NCBI RefSeq assembly: GCF_000010785.1 | Contig: NC_013799.1 | Span: 1,364,001 to 1,428,000 of the forward strand | From: Hydrogenobacter thermophilus TK-6 | GTDB lineage: Bacteria > Aquificota > Aquificia > Aquificales > Aquificaceae | Direction: 5' to 3' | DNA: 64,000 nucleotides | In this document: piece by piece, positions 9,127-23,544 of the stretch | Position numbering within the stretch: position 1 is the first letter of the stretch | Layout of the letters: every line of letters starts with the position of its first letter | Position numbers and translations under genes: made by a program | The notes under the pieces: model-generated | What the model was told of the DNA's origin: nothing | The model's database searches: none | Seen by the model: the letters and a program-made list of their open reading frames with translations, nothing else

Positions 9127-10148
9127 GAGTGCTTTTTATTATCATGCTTCCCGTTCTGGTGTTTTCTGAGACTTTAAAGCTTGACCAGAATGTGATACAG
9201 AAGCTCGGCATAAAACTCCACACGGTCAAGATAGAAAGGGTGAAAGATAGCTTAACGCTTCCTTCAAAGGTGAGTGAGTACTCGGGTCTTGTAGCTGAGG
9301 TGTTTCCGCCCGTAAGTGGTGTAGTAAAAAAGGTTTTTGTAAAGGAGGGGGACAAGGTAAAGAAAGGTGCACCTCTTGCTCTGGTTTACTCACCCCAGAT
9401 AGCCGACCTTCAGGCTCAGATAAGGATGGCTAAGGTAAAACTCCAAACCGCACAGGAAACCCTCAAAAGGGAGGAGATGCTCTACAGAGAGGAGGTTATT
9501 CCCTACGCAAGGTATTACGGAGCAAAGATAGATTACGAAAGAGCAAAGGGGGAGTATGAAGCCCTTTTGGCTTCTTTGAGGTCTTTTGGTGAGGTGATAA
9601 ACGATACCGTCTTGATAAGGTCTCCCATAAGCGGATATGTGATAGAGCAAAAGGTATTTACTGGAAGCGGAGTTGACATCTCAAAAGAGATGTTTAAGGT
9701 CCACTCCCACGAAAAGCTGTGGGTTTACGCTTATGCAACGCCCGAAGATGCCACCAGGGTCAAGGTGGGGATGGTGGGATATGTCCTCTGGCAGGGTCAG
9801 AGATTGGAAGGTAAAGTGGACTATGTATCCCATGAGGTAGACCCAAATACCAAGAGAGTGCCTGTTAGATTGCTGGTAAATAATGTAAGAGACCTGCTCA
9901 GACCTGGACTTATGGTGCAGACAACTATTGAGCTGGGTAGCGTATCGGGAGTATGGCTTCCTCTGCAGGCAGTCCAGAAGGTCAATGGTAGAGATGTAGT
10001 TTTTGTAAAAATTCCCGAAGGCTTTAGTGTAAAGACAGTAAGAAAGATAAGGCAGGAGGGAGAGTGGGTGCTGGTGGAAGGTTTGAAAGAAGGTCAACAG
10101 GTAGCTACCAGCGGTCTTGTATTTTTAAAGTCCCAGGTGGAAAGATGA
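9123..10148 (+). CDS. RND efflux periplasmic adaptor (membrane fusion protein)
   Basis: This 341-residue protein begins at GTG (overlapping the previous stop) with a signal segment (MRVLFIIMLPVLVFS). It shows the biotinyl-lipoyl-like half-motif (VFPPVSGVVKKVFVKEGDKVKKGAPL), an alpha-hairpin (LQAQIRMAKVKLQTAQETL), the second lipoyl half (VLIRSPISGYVIEQKV) and beta-barrel parts (VDYVSHEVDPNTKRVPVRL). This is the CusB/CzcB-like adaptor architecture. No N-terminal Met-rich copper motif is visible, so the substrate is open. It links the inner-membrane pump to the TolC-like duct. Confidence 0.9.
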   Translation: MRVLFIIMLPVLVFSETLKLDQNVIQKLGIKLHTVKIERVKDSLTLPSKVSEYSGLVAEVFPPVSGVVKKVFVKEGDKVKKGAPLALVYSPQIADLQAQIRMAKVKLQTAQETLKREEMLYREEVIPYARYYGAKIDYERAKGEYEALLASLRSFGEVINDTVLIRSPISGYVIEQKVFTGSGVDISKEMFKVHSHEKLWVYAYATPEDATRVKVGMVGYVLWQGQRLEGKVDYVSHEVDPNTKRVPVRLLVNNVRDLLRPGLMVQTTIELGSVSGVWLPLQAVQKVNGRDVVFVKIPEGFSVKTVRKIRQEGEWVLVEGLKEGQQVATSGLVFLKSQVER

Positions 10149-13100
10149 GCAAAGTGCTAAGCTACAGGCTCTTAGTCTTGCTGCTCCTCTTTCTGAGTGT
10201 TGTGATAGGGGTTTGGAGCTTTCTAAAACTGCCCATAGACACCTTTCCTGACCCTACGCCCGTACAGGTGGTTATATACACAGAAACTCCTGGGCTTTCT
10301 GCAGAAGAGACGGAGATTTTGGTGACTCGCCCCATAGAGTCTGTTCTGGCTGGTATAAAGAATGTGGATTTGGTAAGGTCAGTGAGCTTGCCCGGGCTTT
10401 CTTATGTGACTGCCTTTTTCAAAGAAGGTACGGATGTGTATTTGGCAAGGAACCTTGTAGCTCAAAAGCTTCCAGAGGCTCAGGCGCAGATACCGCAAGG
10501 CTATGTACCAAGGATGGGTCCCAACACTTCAGGTCTTGGCAATGTGCTTTTTTATGCTCTTATTGACCAGAAAGGCAACTATTCTCTTGAGGACCTCAAA
10601 ACCATAGAGATGTGGAAGGTAAAGCCGTTAATAAAGTCGGTGGATGGTGTTGAAGAGATCTCCCAATGGGGACCAGAAAGAGCTTACCTGGTAAAGATAA
10701 ATCCCGATGCTATGGTGTTTTATGGCATAACTCTGATGGATGTTATCTCTTCCCTTGAGGAATACAATCAGATAGCAGGTGGCGGTTTTATGGTCTCTCC
10801 CTACGGAGATTTGGTGGTAAGAGGTCTTGGCAGGGTAAGAAGTATAGAAGAATTTGAAAACATACCTGTGAAGAAGTCCGAAGGTGTTCCTGTAAAGCTT
10901 GGTCAGATAGCTACTGTGGTACCTTCCGAGCTTCCTAACAGGAGAGGAGCTTTTACTTTAAACGGTGAAGAAGTGCAGGGAAACATAGTTCTCAAAAGGG
11001 TCAGCACCAACACTATGGAGCTTGTGGAAGAGCTAAGAAGAAAAATTGATGACATCCAGAAAATACTTCCCGATGGTATAAAGATAGAGGTTCTCTACGA
11101 CCAGGCTTACCTGACAAAGAAAGCCCTCTCCACAGTGGAGAAGGCTCTCTTGGAGGGAATAGTTTTAGTTTCCGTAGCCATAACTCTTTATCTTTGGAAC
11201 ATAAGAACAGCTCTGCTGGTGGTCCTTTCCATTCCGCTTACCATGCTTTATACCTTCATCTTTATGAAGCAGGCGGGTATGTCGGGTAATCTCATGTCTT
11301 TGGGGGGTCTTGCTATTGGGGTTGGGCTTTTTGCGGATGCGACTGTGGTGGTGGTGGAAAACATATACAGGCACATGTCCGAAAGCAGGGAAAAACACAA
11401 ATTTTCTCTTGTAGTGGACTCCGTGAGGGAGGTGATGCGCCCTGTGATATTTGCCGTAGGTATAATAGCGGTGGTGTTTCTGCCCATATTCACTCTGGAG
11501 TCGGTGGAAGGCAAGTACTACAAACCTTTAGCCATAACCATCATCTTTGCCCTTTTTTCCTCATTGCTGGTTGCTTTCCTTTTTATGCCCGTTTTGTCGT
11601 ATTATCTGCTCAAAGGTGGAAAGGAGGAAACTTATCTATTTGGCAAGATAAGGGAAGGATATATAAAGCTTTTGGAGAAAGCCTTTAAAGTAAGATGGGT
11701 ACTTATGGGTATCACTTTGGCTTCCTTTATCTTTTCCGTGTTTTTGCTATCAAGGGTAGGCACAGAGTTTGCCCCTCAGCTGGAGGAGGGTGCACTTCTG
11801 ATAAAGTCCTTTCTAAATCCCAATGTCTCGCTTGACGAAGCCAAAAGAGTTGCACGGCTGGTGGAAAGTACCGCTTTAGAGTATCCTGAAGTCGTCAGAA
11901 CCTTTTCCAACATAGGAAGAGCTGAGGTGGGAGAGCCAGAAGATGTAAACTACATAGAGACCTTTATTATGCTCAAACCCATGTCCGAGTGGAGAAGCTT
12001 TAAAAGTAGAGAGGAATTTGTAAACCTTCTTAGGGAAAAACTTAGGGATATTCCTGGTGTAGAGCTGAGCTTTACTCAACCTATACAGATGAGGATAGAC
12101 GAGCTACTCTCAGGTGTCAAGTCAACGGTAGCTATAAAGGTTTTTGGAGATGACCTCCAAAAGATAAACCAGATAGCTTACAAAATAGAGAATATAGTCA
12201 AAAACACCAGAGGAGCCGTTGATGTAGAGACGGAGGCACAATCTGGCAAATTACAACTGCGCATAATTCCCAAGATGGAGGAGCTAAAAAGGTATAACCT
12301 GACAACGGCTGACCTTATGCAGCTGGTCTCTTACGCCTTGGGAGGAAGGGAGGTTGGGTACTTTCAGCAAGAGACCATACTCTTTCCTGTGGTAATAGGT
12401 TTGAGTAAGAAGGACCTGGAGACTCTCAAAAATTTACCGTTGCTTTTAAAAGATGGTAGCATAGTAAATCTCTCTCAGGTAGCCCATTTGCAGATAGCCG
12501 AAGGTTTTCAGAAGATAAGAAGGGAAAACGGCATAAGGTTTGCTTTAGTCCAGTCAAACCTTTCGGGAAGAGACCTGGGCGGATTTGTAAAAGAGCTTAA
12601 GGAGAAAATATCCAAGGAGATAAAGCTTCCGCCAGGATACTTCATAGCTTTCGGTGGGCAGTTTGAAAATCAGGAAAGAGCTATGAAGAGACTCTCTATA
12701 GCGGTTCCCTTAGCTGTACTTCTCATCTTTGTGCTTCTGTATCTGAATTATAACTCTCTGAGGGATGCTCTCATTGTTATACTCAATGTGCCCTTCGCCA
12801 CCATAGGAGGTGTGTTTGCCCTCTACATTTCTGGTTATAACCTGTCTGTTCCTTCTGCCATAGGGTTTATAGCGGTTTTTGGCATAGCTACACTCAACGG
12901 CGTAGTCCTCATATCTTATATAAGGTCTCTTCTGGAAAATGGATATAACCTTAGGGAAGCTGTCCTTACAGGTGCAGGTAGAAGGCTAAGACCCATACTT
13001 ATAACAGCCACAGCCGCATCTTTGGGACTTCTTCCCATACTCTTTACCTCCGACATAGGCTCCGAGATCCAAAAACCTCTGGCTGTTGTGGTGATAGGTG

Positions 13101-17910: not shown

Positions 17911-18357
17911 ATGGACAGAAGGAGGTTTTTACAGCTCTCCACGGTAAGTATTCTCAGCTTAACCTTCGCACCCGGACTGCTAAAGCAGTCCTTTGGAGCG
18001 TCCAAGCTGGATGAAGAGCTTCAGAAGAGGCTCGGTGTTTCTCTATCCCAGATTAAGGAGTCTCCGGAGGTTAAGCTTCAGGCACCCACCATTGCAGAAT
18101 CCGGTGCCAATGTGCCAGTCAGCGTAGAGTCCGACATACCTGTGGATAAGGTGGACAGTGTGTGGATATTTGTGGACAACAACCCCGTTCCCTGGATAAC
18201 TGACATTAAACTCAGTCCTATGAACGGAAGAGTTTACTTTGCCACTAGAATAAAGATGGGTCAGACTTCCAATGTGAGGGCAATACTCAAAATGAAGGAC
18301 GGCTCTTATCTTATGGCTACCAAAGAGGTCAAAGTCACAGTTGGCGGTTGTGGATAA
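17911..18357 (+). CDS. soxY: Sulfur-carrier protein SoxY
   Basis: This 148-residue protein begins with a twin-arginine signal (MDRRRFLQLSTVSILSLTF) and ends VTVGGCG. The C-terminal GGCG swinging arm carries the cysteine to which sulfur intermediates are bound during thiosulfate oxidation. The SoxY middle domain is the Ig-like fold (VSVESDIPVDKVDSVWIFVDNNP). It has a GGAGGT ribosome-binding site. It forms a complex with SoxZ, encoded 31 bases downstream. Confidence 0.95.
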   Translation: MDRRRFLQLSTVSILSLTFAPGLLKQSFGASKLDEELQKRLGVSLSQIKESPEVKLQAPTIAESGANVPVSVESDIPVDKVDSVWIFVDNNPVPWITDIKLSPMNGRVYFATRIKMGQTSNVRAILKMKDGSYLMATKEVKVTVGGCG

Positions 18358-18388: not shown

Positions 18389-18718
18389 ATGGCTGTAGGA
18401 GCTGGAATACTTAGAGTTCCAAAGGAAGCCAAGAAGGGGGAAATAGTCAAAGTGCAGATGGTGATCACTCACCCTATGGAACCCGGCACTAGAAAGGACC
18501 CACAGACGGGTCAGATCATCCCTGCCTACCACCTTACCAAGCTGGAGGTTCTGTTTAATGACAAAACAGTTTCAGTAGTTGATATGGGTGGGGGTGTGAG
18601 CGCCAATCCTTTCATAGGACTCACTTTAAAGGTTGATGAGAGCGGTATAGTAAAGATCGCTTACGAAGACAACAAAGGTGGAAAATGGGAAAAGACTGCA
18701 GAGATAAGAGTTGTTTGA
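18389..18718 (+). CDS. soxZ: SoxZ, partner of SoxY
   Basis: The 109-residue protein matches SoxZ in length and pattern: VITHPMEPGTRKDPQTGQIIPAYHL early and an Ig-like beta sandwich after (ANPFIGLTLKV). It has no signal peptide, as expected since SoxYZ is exported as a complex on the SoxY Tat signal. A GGAGG site lies before ATG 18389. The following soxA starts 15 bases after the stop. Confidence 0.95.
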   Translation: MAVGAGILRVPKEAKKGEIVKVQMVITHPMEPGTRKDPQTGQIIPAYHLTKLEVLFNDKTVSVVDMGGGVSANPFIGLTLKVDESGIVKIAYEDNKGGKWEKTAEIRVV

Positions 18719-18733
18719 TATGGGACCAAAACC

Positions 18734-19495
18734 ATGGGGAAGTGGGTAACAATTATTTTTGTGTTATTTCTTTATGCCATAGCCCAGCAGGAGAATCCGG
18801 CGGAGGAGGTAAAGAAGCAAAAAGAGCTCCTGCTCAAAGAGATGGGCATACTTCCCGGAGATGTTTATGCGGAGCAGGGCAGAGACATGTTTAACAAACC
18901 TATGGGAAATGCAGGCAAGTCGTGCTCTTCCTGCCATGGTCAGGACGGCAGGTATCTGAGGGGAGCTTACGCGCACATGCCCAGGTATTACAAAGACATG
19001 GATGCCGTGGCAGACCTGGATACTAGAATCAAGTACTGCATGGAAAAGTACATGGGTGTGGGTAATGTAAAGCACGACCTTAACTTTAAGAGTATAGCCA
19101 CCTACGTGGCTACCCTTTCCAACGGCATGAAAATGGATGTAAAGCTCACTCATCCAAAAGAGAGGGAGATGTACGAAAAGGGCAGAGAGCTATGGTATGC
19201 AAGAGTGGGTAAGATGGACTTTTCCTGCGCCATATGCCATGACAGTGAAGCAGGTAAAAGGGTTTTCTTGCAAACCGTTGTTGCTGTTAAAGAAGACAAG
19301 GTAGCCACCCACTGGCCTGCCTACAGGTTCTCCAACGACCAGCTCTGGACTATGGAAGACAGAATCAGAGGATGTTTTGGTGACATGAGGGTAGCTCCGC
19401 CGGAGCACTTCCATTGGGCTGTTGTAGCTTTGAATTTGTATCTATCTTACAAGGCAAAGGGGGGTGTAGTAAGGGTTCCCGGATTTATCTACTAA
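18734..19495 (+). CDS. soxA: SoxA-type c cytochrome, copy 1
   Basis: The 253-residue protein has a short signal peptide (about 1-17), two heme c sites (CSSCH at 64-68 and CAICH at 165-169) and the RIRGC segment near 214, where SoxA carries the persulfide-forming cysteine. With SoxX it attaches thiosulfate to SoxY. Between about residues 14 and 169 it is identical to the next gene's product. The ribosome-binding site is weak (GGGA), unlike the GGAGGG of copy 2. Its C-terminal region and one internal patch (170-185) differ from copy 2. Retention of both hemes and the Cys suggests it is functional. Confidence 0.9.
   Translation: MGKWVTIIFVLFLYAIAQQENPAEEVKKQKELLLKEMGILPGDVYAEQGRDMFNKPMGNAGKSCSSCHGQDGRYLRGAYAHMPRYYKDMDAVADLDTRIKYCMEKYMGVGNVKHDLNFKSIATYVATLSNGMKMDVKLTHPKEREMYEKGRELWYARVGKMDFSCAICHDSEAGKRVFLQTVVAVKEDKVATHWPAYRFSNDQLWTMEDRIRGCFGDMRVAPPEHFHWAVVALNLYLSYKAKGGVVRVPGFIY
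18773..19242 (+). repeat. Near-identical soxA block, copy A
   Basis: This 470-base block matches 19574-20043 at a constant offset of 801 bases. The only difference I found is T at 18937 versus C at 19738, a silent His codon change in the first heme motif. A second identical patch spans 19289-19374 against 20090-20175. The 46 bases between them differ completely. Confidence 0.9.
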
Positions 19496-19516
19496 CTGAA
19501 TCAGGAGGGTAAAGGC

Positions 19517-20296
19517 ATGAGAAAGCTTTGGTTCTTGCCCATTTTGCTGGGAGCGGTGGGAGGCGTGAGTCTCTATGCCATAGCCCAGCAGGAGAATCCG
19601 GCGGAGGAGGTAAAGAAGCAAAAAGAGCTCCTGCTCAAAGAGATGGGCATACTTCCCGGAGATGTTTATGCGGAGCAGGGCAGAGACATGTTTAACAAAC
19701 CTATGGGAAATGCAGGCAAGTCGTGCTCTTCCTGCCACGGTCAGGACGGCAGGTATCTGAGGGGAGCTTACGCGCACATGCCCAGGTATTACAAAGACAT
19801 GGATGCCGTGGCAGACCTGGATACTAGAATCAAGTACTGCATGGAAAAGTACATGGGTGTGGGTAATGTAAAGCACGACCTTAACTTTAAGAGTATAGCC
19901 ACCTACGTGGCTACCCTTTCCAACGGCATGAAAATGGATGTAAAGCTCACTCATCCAAAAGAGAGGGAGATGTACGAAAAGGGCAGAGAGCTATGGTATG
20001 CAAGAGTGGGTAAGATGGACTTTTCCTGCGCCATATGCCATGATACCTTTGGAGGACAGAGGATAAGACTCCAAACCCTTGCAAAGGTGAAAGAAGACAA
20101 GGTAGCCACCCACTGGCCTGCCTACAGGTTCTCCAACGACCAGCTCTGGACTATGGAAGACAGAATCAGAGGATGCTACAACCAGATAAGAGTGACCCCT
20201 CCACCCCACTTTAGCTGGCCACAGATCGCCCTTAGCCTTTATATGGCTTATGAGTCCAAAGGTGGCACCATAGAAACGCCGGGATTTGTCAGATGA
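19517..20296 (+). CDS. soxA: SoxA-type c cytochrome, copy 2
   Basis: This 259-residue protein has a longer, better signal peptide (about 1-23, LPILLGAVGGVSLYAIA) and two heme c sites (CSSCH at 70-74 and CAICH at 171-175). The persulfide cysteine is at about 220 (RIRGC). It is expected to act with SoxX as the SoxAX thiosulfate-oxidising cytochrome. It has a good GGAGGG ribosome-binding site. Compared with copy 1 it differs in the signal peptide, in a 16-residue patch after the second heme and in the C-terminal end from residue 221. Which copy pairs with SoxX is not clear from sequence. Confidence 0.92.
   Translation: MRKLWFLPILLGAVGGVSLYAIAQQENPAEEVKKQKELLLKEMGILPGDVYAEQGRDMFNKPMGNAGKSCSSCHGQDGRYLRGAYAHMPRYYKDMDAVADLDTRIKYCMEKYMGVGNVKHDLNFKSIATYVATLSNGMKMDVKLTHPKEREMYEKGRELWYARVGKMDFSCAICHDTFGGQRIRLQTLAKVKEDKVATHWPAYRFSNDQLWTMEDRIRGCYNQIRVTPPPHFSWPQIALSLYMAYESKGGTIETPGFVR
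19574..20043 (+). repeat. Near-identical soxA block, copy B
   Basis: This is the counterpart of 18773-19242, in direct orientation and the same reading frame. The pattern of long identity broken by a divergent patch, with divergent ends, is typical of gene conversion between older tandem paralogues. Confidence 0.9.
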
Positions 20297-20884: not shown

Positions 20885-22642
20885 ATGCAACTTACCAGAA
20901 GGGACTTTCTTGAGCTGGCTATAGTGACAGGAGCTTACCTGAGTATGGACCCTGTTTCCGCTCTGGCAAAGCTAAGAGCAGAAGACCTCATGTCTTTTAA
21001 AAGCCTTGGAAATGTTACCCTGGTGTTCACCACAGACATGCACGCGCATTTAAAACCCCTTTACTTTTCAGAGCCTGTAAACCTAGTCCCACCCAAAGGA
21101 CTTGAGGGGCTTCCCGGATATGTGGCGGGCAGAGACTTTCTGAGAATGTACAAAATAGCTCCCAACACCCTTGAGGCTTACTTTGACAGCTGTGTAAACT
21201 TCCCCGAGCTTGCCAGAAAGTTTGGCAAGATGGGAGGTGGCGAGCACATCACCTGGATAATAAAGTCCATCGTAAACGAGCGTGGCAGGGACAAAGTGCT
21301 TGTCCTTGATGGAGGAGACACTTGGGTCACCACAGCCATAGGTCTCTTTACCGACGGCAAGGCTGTGGTGGACTGGATGAACTACACAGGCTACGACCTT
21401 ATGGTGGGACACTGGGACTTTACCCTCGGAAAGGAGAAGTTCCTGCAAAGGCTCAAAGAGCTCAAGGCTGAGTTCATATCCCAGAATGTGGTGGATGCGG
21501 ACTTTGGAGACCTGATTTTCAAACCTTACTCCATTAGAGAGGTAGGAGGGGTAAAGCTCGGCATAATAGGAAACTCCTTCCCCTTCACACCCATAGCAAA
21601 CCCCAGAGAGTTTGTGGAAGGCTGGAGCTTTGGCGTAAGGGAAGAGCAGATGCAAAAGTTTGTGAATGAGCTAAGAGAAAAGCACAAAGTGGACGCGGTG
21701 ATACTCCTCTCCCACGATGGGCTACCTCTTGATATAGCCTTAGCTAAGAAGGTAAGGGGTATAGACATCATCATCTCAGGACACACCCACGATGTAACGC
21801 CAAGACCGTACTTTGTGGGCAACACCATGATAGTGATAGCTGGATCCCACGGCAAGTATGTGGGTAGGCTGGACCTGGACATAAGGAACGGGAAGATAAG
21901 GAATTACAGGTTTAAGCTCATACCAGTAGCCAGCAACCTTCTGCCCGCGGACAAGGGTGCAAAAGAGCTTATAGAGAAGTGGTATAAACCATACGAGAAA
22001 AAGCTCTCGGAGGAGATAGGTGTGGCGGAAGTGCTCCTCTACAAGAGAGACACCTTCTTCAGCACCTTTGACAGGCTTGTAGGCATGGCAATAGCGGACT
22101 ACTTCCATGGAGTTGACATAGTCACATCCCCCGGCTACAGATGGGGTACTACTGTGCTGCCAGGGCAGAAAATCACGGTGGATGATGTATACGACTTTAC
22201 AGCAATAACTTATCCTAATGTTTACCTGATGAAAAGAACGGGAGAGCAGTTAAAAGCGGTTTGGGAGGATGTGGCAGACAATGTGTTTAACCCAGACCCC
22301 TTCTACCAGCAGGGCGGAGACATGTCAAGGCTTTATAATGTTGAGTACGAAATAGAGATAGGTGCCAAGCAGGGACAGAGAATAAAGAGAGCTTGGATAA
22401 AAGGTAAAGAGCTGGACCCCAAGAAGGAGTATACAGTGGCAGTTTACGGAGGACCAACACCACCACCAGAGACGCTCCTGCCCGATGTCAAACCCATCCC
22501 TGTCTATGACATAGTCATTGATTACATAAGGAAGAAAAGGCACATATATGTTGACCCCACACCTAATGTGAAGGTGCTTGATGCCAAGTATGTGTCTCCG
22601 CTGGAAGGCTTTGGAAAAGGCATGATAAGGAGGAAGGCATGA
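20885..22642 (+). CDS. soxB: SoxB, thiosulfohydrolase
   Basis: The 585-residue protein has a Tat signal (LTRRDFLELAIVTG) and the 5'-nucleotidase/metallophosphatase core: TTDMHAHLKPLY, DGGDTW, GHWDFTLG, LLSHDG and SGHTHD provide the ligands of the dimanganese site. SoxB releases sulfate from the SoxY-bound thiosulfonate. The C-terminal half is the substrate-recognition domain. Length and order of motifs fit SoxB. It has a GGAGG site just upstream and overlaps the next gene by 4 bases. Confidence 0.96.
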   Translation: MQLTRRDFLELAIVTGAYLSMDPVSALAKLRAEDLMSFKSLGNVTLVFTTDMHAHLKPLYFSEPVNLVPPKGLEGLPGYVAGRDFLRMYKIAPNTLEAYFDSCVNFPELARKFGKMGGGEHITWIIKSIVNERGRDKVLVLDGGDTWVTTAIGLFTDGKAVVDWMNYTGYDLMVGHWDFTLGKEKFLQRLKELKAEFISQNVVDADFGDLIFKPYSIREVGGVKLGIIGNSFPFTPIANPREFVEGWSFGVREEQMQKFVNELREKHKVDAVILLSHDGLPLDIALAKKVRGIDIIISGHTHDVTPRPYFVGNTMIVIAGSHGKYVGRLDLDIRNGKIRNYRFKLIPVASNLLPADKGAKELIEKWYKPYEKKLSEEIGVAEVLLYKRDTFFSTFDRLVGMAIADYFHGVDIVTSPGYRWGTTVLPGQKITVDDVYDFTAITYPNVYLMKRTGEQLKAVWEDVADNVFNPDPFYQQGGDMSRLYNVEYEIEIGAKQGQRIKRAWIKGKELDPKKEYTVAVYGGPTPPPETLLPDVKPIPVYDIVIDYIRKKRHIYVDPTPNVKVLDAKYVSPLEGFGKGMIRRKA

Positions 22643-23544
22643 AGATCCTTCCCATTCTTCTTTTCCTTTTGACGCTTTCCTTTGCCGGTGACATTACCAG
22701 CCTGATGTTTCAGACCTACAGGGTAGAGGGTAAAGACTTTCAAAGCGTTGTGGAAGAGCTAAAAGAGAAGCTAAACCAAAGTGATCTTAAGGTTTTGCGC
22801 ACTCTTACCATATCGGAAGCTATAAAAGCCCGAGGAGTGAAGGACTTTCCCAACTACACGGTTCTTCTGGCGTGCGACAGGAAAGAAAAGGAGGACCTGC
22901 TCATAAAAGTGCCCTTCATGAGCAACCTTATCCCATGCTCCGTTGCAGTTTATGAAAACAAAGATGGTAGTGTGTCCATCACTGCAATAAACGAAAAGCC
23001 TTATCTTGAGGCTTTTTCCAAAGAACTATCAAAGGATGATAGAAGACTTATAAGCAAAACCTACATGGAGCTCAGAAGGGTCCTTTCAAGTGTAGGTAAA
23101 TACAAAAAGGCTCACATAAGTAAGGCGCAGATAAGAAAGATAATGTCTCAACTCAAAGGCGTCTTCTTTGAAACTTCAGATACTATAAAGGGTATGAGCT
23201 TTGAAGATGCAAAAACTCTTCTCAAGACAGCTCTTGACGGAGTAAACATGAACATACTGGGTGTTGAAGACATAAGAAAAGAGACTCCTAAGTACTCTTT
23301 CATGCTTGCATGCAACCTCACTTACGGAGAGAAAATCTTAAGAGAGTTTCCCCACTTTGGAACCTTAGCACCTTGCAGGGTCTACCTGTATGAGAAACCC
23401 GACGGTAGCGTGGGTGTAGGCTACATAAACATTCAAACACTTATAAAACTTTACGGAAAGCATCTTCACAGAGATGCGGTGGAAGTCTTTGAAAAGGCAG
23501 ATAGAGACATAAAGTCCGCCATAAAGGAAGTCAAGGGAGAGTAG
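22639..23544 (+). CDS. Exported protein with two DUF302 domains
   Basis: This 301-residue protein has a signal peptide (about 1-16, LLTLSFAG). Its two halves repeat the same pattern: NYTVLLACD...PFMSNLIPCSVAVYENKDGSVSI and KYSFMLACN...PHFGTLAPCRVYLYEKPDGSVGV. This matches DUF302, whose members sit in sulfur-oxidation gene clusters and may bind sulfur compounds. Each half keeps a Cys in LAC and another in the PC segment. It overlaps soxB by 4 bases and is followed by the metallo-hydrolase, so a role in thiosulfate metabolism is likely but untested. Confidence 0.8.
   Translation: MKILPILLFLLTLSFAGDITSLMFQTYRVEGKDFQSVVEELKEKLNQSDLKVLRTLTISEAIKARGVKDFPNYTVLLACDRKEKEDLLIKVPFMSNLIPCSVAVYENKDGSVSITAINEKPYLEAFSKELSKDDRRLISKTYMELRRVLSSVGKYKKAHISKAQIRKIMSQLKGVFFETSDTIKGMSFEDAKTLLKTALDGVNMNILGVEDIRKETPKYSFMLACNLTYGEKILREFPHFGTLAPCRVYLYEKPDGSVGVGYINIQTLIKLYGKHLHRDAVEVFEKADRDIKSAIKEVKGE

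Follow-up and report, generated by a model that had tools for sequence, protein, structure and literature searches.

How have two adjacent genes for the same cytochrome come to be almost identical in two tracts and strongly different in three short segments, and what may the difference mean for the enzyme? This question is raised by the sox cluster of Hydrogenobacter thermophilus TK-6, located within the 64,000-nucleotide stretch of DNA analysed here (the window, positions 1,364,001 to 1,428,000 of NC_013799.1), itself inside one closed contig of 1,743,135 bases. The cluster is ordered soxW-like, soxY, soxZ, soxA1, soxA2, soxX, soxB, with the two soxA genes head to tail (Table 1). Both products, SoxA1 (253 aa) and SoxA2 (259 aa), belong to SoxA, as they exceed the equivalog cutoff of TIGR04484 (110 bits). 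The diheme motifs CSSCH and CAICH are present in both, and the context, with soxX, soxY, soxZ and soxB alongside (Y-Z-A1-A2-X-B), is that of SoxA. A predicted Cys heme ligand, placed by alignment to the SoxA structures 3OA8 and 1H31, lies in the motif RIRGC of both copies, which aligns with RFRGC of Rhodovulum sulfidophilum SoxA (1h31) and with the active-site Cys and an invariant Arg of solved SoxA. In complex with SoxX, a SoxA catalyses the oxidative conjugation of thiosulfate to SoxYZ.

Table 1. Genes of the sox cluster and segments of the two soxA copies (positions are those of the window).
Feature	Position	Strand	Basis
soxY (thiosulfate carrier)	17911..18357	+	TIGR04488 162 bits, cutoff 125; one match in genome
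soxZ	18389..18718	+	TIGR04490 108 bits, cutoff 76; one match in genome
soxA1, diheme SoxA paralogue with derived tail	18734..19495	+	TIGR04484 242 bits, cutoff 110
soxA1 divergent segment 1: signal peptide, ending just before YAIAQQ	18734..18772	+	Codon comparison
soxA1 homogenised tract 1: N-terminal heme-1 domain to heme-2 CAICH	18773..19242	+	1 difference in 470 vs 19574-20043; dS 0.01
soxA1 heme motifs CSSCH; CAICH	18923-18937; 19226-19240	+	
soxA1 divergent segment 2: patch after heme 2, with A1-specific Phe178	19243..19288	+	Codon comparison
soxA1 homogenised tract 2: WPAYR...RIRGC	19289..19374	+	Identical to 20090-20175
soxA1 divergent segment 3: C-terminal 39 codons	19375..19492	+	dN 0.56 vs A2
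soxA2, ancestral-type diheme SoxA	19517..20296	+	TIGR04484 249 bits, cutoff 110
soxA2 homogenised tract 1	19574..20043	+	Copy comparison at offset 801
soxA2 divergent segment 2: TFGGQRIRLQTLAKV, as in relatives	20044..20089	+	Codon comparison
soxA2 homogenised tract 2	20090..20175	+	Copy comparison at offset 801
soxA2 divergent segment 3: C-terminus	20176..20293	+	Codon comparison
soxX, with no second SoxX found in the genome	20286..20870 (listed ORF; search start 20313)	+	TIGR04485 99 bits, cutoff 61
soxB	20885..22642	+	TIGR04486 810 bits, cutoff 550

A preliminary description of this locus had reported a 470-base block repeated with one silent difference and a second, 86-base patch repeated exactly. 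Both are borne out at a fixed offset of 801: positions 18773-18936 equal 19574-19737, positions 18938-19242 equal 19739-20043, the sole difference in tract 1 (18937) is a silent one in the His codon of heme 1 (CAT/CAC, third base), and the shorter tract 2 is identical throughout. The chance expectation for an exact repeat of 86 bases is about 1e-42, and blastn of the 64-kb window against itself (E 1e-5) returns the soxA tracts and nothing else. In soxA1, tract 2 runs into the codon of the predicted heme-ligand Cys (19373-19375) and stops at its second base. Codon comparison of the two genes also confirms that signal peptides and C-termini differ. The further statement that no indels separate the copies holds from SoxA1 residue 14 to the stop codon and fails for the signal peptides, with a length difference of six residues. 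The 46 bases between the two tracts, previously called unrelated, agree at 22 of 46 positions (24 differences) and their codons align without gaps, which makes them diverged homologues.

Repeats as long as these, 470 and 86 bases, can lead an assembler astray, and a collapsed or chimeric repeat could in principle produce such a mosaic. The copies nevertheless lie in a single closed contig with different flanks and different tails, and two TK-6 genome projects using different methods have been described as syntenic (PMC3111988). Moreover, a second Hydrogenobacter genome (G028, an assembly of 60 contigs) shows the tandem pair and its mosaic again, with tract edges agreeing within 3 nt, the patch after heme 2 and the C-terminus being kept distinct there as well. 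As this arrangement recurs, with residual substitutions of its own, in an independent assembly of another species, an assembly or sequencing artefact is extremely improbable.

The pair is known from these two species only: among 64 genomes of the family searched, two adjacent soxA genes occur in the genome of the window and in G028. The other three congeners (G025-G027) have one A2-like soxA each, between soxZ and soxX, and the only Hydrogenobacter in the contig scan, two metagenome-assembled genomes (L032 and L033, matching G027 and G026, respectively), are likewise single-copy. Relatives with two uniformly divergent copies, the case that would have contradicted conversion, were not encountered. 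No further tandem pairs were found in a search of 136 Aquificota genomes, 77 of which gave a match; in two of the 136 (G013 and G035), second soxA matches lie elsewhere in the genome, not in tandem. Another Aquificota genome has an apparently broken soxA (G078:C11:304268-304899), its two matches being pieces of one gene with two in-frame TAG codons.

Comparison of the two species reveals opposite relationships in the two kinds of segment. In the homogenised tracts, NG86 dS between the copies of one genome is 0.01 (window) and 0.07 (G028), with dN zero, and for tract 2 alone 0 and 0.06; between species it is 1.1-1.4. In the patch and C-terminus, silent sites are saturated between copies of one genome (dN 0.4-0.8), and dN falls to 0.06-0.10 for A1 against A1 and A2 against A2 across species. 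Phylogenies agree with these figures. In the core tree the copies pair within species, and a constraint uniting the A1 genes is rejected (p-AU 5.5e-9); the tree of the divergent segments unites the A1 genes with support 100/100, and both constraints that pair the copies by species fail the AU test (p-AU 2.3e-8 and 1.5e-3). At silent polymorphic codons the two copies agree in 107/108 and 101/108 cases inside the tracts, as against 6/21 and 4/21 outside, and the longest stretches of identity counted over polymorphic sites, 104 and 48, exceed the maxima of 29 and 32 obtained in 10,000 site shuffles. Strong codon constraint was considered as a cause of the identity and rejected, since between species these silent sites vary freely. 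The codon of the Cys ligand is TGT in A1 and TGC in A2 in both species, and this persistent difference fixes the right-hand edge of the tract to one base.

Clustering by copy in the patch and C-terminus means that the duplication predates the split of the two species, and clustering by species in the tracts means that conversion recurred independently in both lineages, a count of two. The pattern is that of concerted evolution, with paralogues within each of the two genomes closer than orthologues and silent sites homogenised, and the earlier proposal of gene conversion between older paralogues is accordingly upheld by the G028 mosaic, the dS values, the trees and the AU tests. The divergent segments have been conserved throughout. 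With dS taken as a clock, the latest conversion falls within the final few percent of the interval since the two species diverged.

Near-identity of the core copies within each species could also be explained by recent, independent tandem duplications, one per species, after which a common donor supplied new tails. This would require the same insertion point, edges within 3 nt and orthologous tails, all twice; the tail dS of 0.6-0.8 between species is, however, in keeping with vertical inheritance of the tails, and the 136 Aquificota genomes searched yielded no donor SoxA whose tail is A1-like. We regard such a history as highly unlikely. The between-species dS of the neighbouring soxY, soxZ, soxX and soxB genes, 1.4-2.4, fits vertical descent.

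Which copy is the newcomer is suggested by the gene starts. The leader and Shine-Dalgarno sequence of soxA2 resemble those of the single-copy genes, with a strong Shine-Dalgarno (AGGAGGGTAAAGGC), and AGGAGG-like motifs precede soxY, soxZ, soxA2, soxX and soxB. A clear Shine-Dalgarno is lacking upstream of soxA1 in the genome of the window (18704-18733) and in G028 (L034). As it is A2, not A1, that has the start region of the single-copy genes, the derived copy, the one inserted, is most likely A1. Its translation may be lower, or may proceed via coupling to soxZ. In their divergent segments, the seven SoxA of Hydrogenobacter are united in a single clade apart from the sister genus (g10) and from other genera (98/100), and the stem leading to the two A1 sequences measures 1.14 amino acid changes per site, to which relaxed constraint could have contributed. 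The grouping of the two double-copy species obtains 58/88 on protein, and on DNA it is not rejected (p-AU 0.21). With species order so weakly defined, loss of A1 in G025-G027 and a later duplication both stand as options, and A1 may have branched before or after the single-copy lineage, the tree of divergent segments fitting either. Derivation of the single-copy genes by crossover between A1 and A2 was also considered and rejected, because recombination within the core would have kept the leader of A1, and theirs is A2-like, Shine-Dalgarno included.

Taken together, these data lead us to favour strongly, as very probable, a history in which tandem duplication was followed by divergence of A1 and by recurrent conversion, with selection acting against overwrites because A1 and A2 differ in role. 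The duplication would date to the stem of Hydrogenobacter, when the sister genus had already separated and the two double-copy species had not yet parted. The upstream copy A1 would then have changed fast in its signal peptide, in the patch of 16 codons that follows heme 2 and in the last 39 codons, past the ligand Cys, and these parts would subsequently have become constrained. Intragenomic conversion would have repeatedly homogenised the remaining sequence, independently in each species, and overwrites of the divergent segments would have been purged by selection, as A1 and A2 presumably do different things. We infer many rounds of conversion, none of which fixed an overwrite of an island.

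The role of selection deserves a closer look, since the islands are also the only mismatched segments of the two genes and the tract edges hug them in both species. The same conversion history could thus have left islands that persist mainly because mismatches block strand exchange, with A1 and A2 nearly redundant; a heterology barrier alone could indeed help to exclude conversion from the islands. Against this, a patch of 46 bases between 470 and 86 identical bases should sometimes be overwritten, and the 86-base tract, itself lying between divergent segments, is still homogenised (dS 0 and 0.06 in the two species). Furthermore, the A1 tails are constrained across species (dN about 0.09, dS about 0.6), as are those of A2. 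Near-redundant copies separated mainly by such a barrier are therefore considered unlikely, and the divergent segments are, by their substitution rates, under purifying selection. The earlier suggestion that selection keeps the segments distinct is in this way strengthened by the conservation of the islands across species; selection as a filter, and with it a functional difference between A1 and A2, is inferred from that conservation and not proved by it.

What the difference might be is indicated by its location. All differences between the mature proteins fall within the catalytic domain, at SoxA1 residues 170-185 and 215-253. Thirteen residues are fixed in both A1 proteins and absent from ten other SoxA; the A1-specific residues include R178F, V182, V183, M218, P224E, N234, K240, E247R and R253Y, and R178F, P224E, E247R and R253Y are charge changes. 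Position 178 is Arg in all aligned single-copy SoxA of the Aquificaceae and Phe in A1. The roles of the active-site Cys and of the invariant arginines of SoxA have been described (PMC4423706), and the second invariant Arg (Arg232 of R. sulfidophilum, PMC4423706) would correspond to that of WPAYR in tract 2. With CxxCH sites, Cys ligand and thiosulfate-binding arginines all kept, both copies are predicted to form the Cys-S-thiosulfonate. The cavity of SoxAX is formed by the catalytic domain and is enlarged for the arm of SoxY (PMC4423706), so that a change in the docking or release of the acceptor is the most economical functional reading of A1. The altered outer parts of the domain would probably shift these steps with respect to the SoxYZ arm, SoxX or another thiol. 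An AlphaFold2 model of A1 built with 26 relatives had a mean pLDDT of 63, below 50 over residues 158-195, too low to place the islands on it, and the structural reading is therefore based on sequence alignment.

The preliminary description had suggested that the two proteins may bind different partners around a shared heme core. Homology searches of both genomes turned up no additional SoxX, SoxY or SoxZ as a possible private partner of A1. With one of each per genome, two dedicated sets of these partners are not encoded, and both SoxA proteins would share the single SoxX, SoxY and SoxZ. The simplest reading is a neofunctionalised SoxA1. That it performs the same chemistry on a different acceptor, or joins SoxA2 in a mixed complex built on the one SoxX, is a tentative proposal that may well not hold; its expression might also be weak, given the lack of a clear Shine-Dalgarno. 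If the proposal is correct, two SoxA enzymes rely on a single SoxX and a single SoxYZ, with conversion keeping the thiosulfate and electron-transfer core matched and selection guarding the parts that face the acceptor.

Conversion with protected islands is already known from two eukaryotic studies. The mammalian TLR1/TLR6 genes (PMC2077338) are likewise tandem paralogues with independent conversions in each species, nearly identical edges and one region homogenised, others being kept distinct for different recognition. Nine species are involved there; soxA is a bacterial periplasmic diheme cytochrome studied in two, with three short islands of divergence, of which two lie in the catalytic domain. 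In GOT1p1/GOT1p2 of the copepod Tigriopus californicus (PMC3728101), divergent islands amid ongoing conversion were read as selection for new function, in a eukaryote and between populations, whereas soxA is compared between bacterial species. In prokaryotes, long-lasting recurrent concerted evolution has been described for 26 genes, including nuoL (Aquificales) and tuf (PMC6053082). These cases resemble soxA in the recurrent conversion of paralogues in related species, often in complexes of energy metabolism; homogenisation of soxA differs in being partial and stopping at fixed edges, and the word sox is absent from the main text of that paper. No prior account of tandem soxA genes or of soxA conversion was found in the literature searched, which included few subscription papers, so that an earlier mention is possible.

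Among sox systems, SoxA1 and SoxA2 resemble SoxA of known SoxAX/SoxXA complexes (3OA8, 1H31, 2C1D) in TIGR04484 match, diheme layout and predicted Cys ligand, and differ from them in the presence of two tandem SoxA for one SoxX and, in A1, in a derived C-terminus and a Phe at the second Arg of "RIRLQ". Plasmid pMESIL01 of Allomeiothermus silvanus also has two soxA genes in one sox cluster (L052, 2369-3148 and 6001-6792), but each adjoins its own soxX, and the two are uniformly divergent (65% nucleotide identity, longest identical run 14) with no mosaic. The Hydrogenobacter pair thus provides a clean bacterial example of conversion halting at the same edges in two species. As SoxAX catalysis has been called "highly recalcitrant" to mechanistic analysis (PMC4423706), it may also serve as a natural domain swap run twice, in which the heme-1 domain and the Cys/Arg core are identical and only mapped parts of the catalytic domain differ; residues 172, 177, 178, 182, 183, 218, 224, 234, 240, 247 and 253 of A1 are candidates for acceptor docking.

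A further observation concerns the gene 3' of soxB (22639-23541 of the window), which consists of two fused DUF302 domains. In a relative of another genus (L041), two DUF302 domains are encoded by separate adjacent genes (reverse complement, 9656-10144 and 10141-10575), and two short open reading frames are found at the position after soxB in other genera too.
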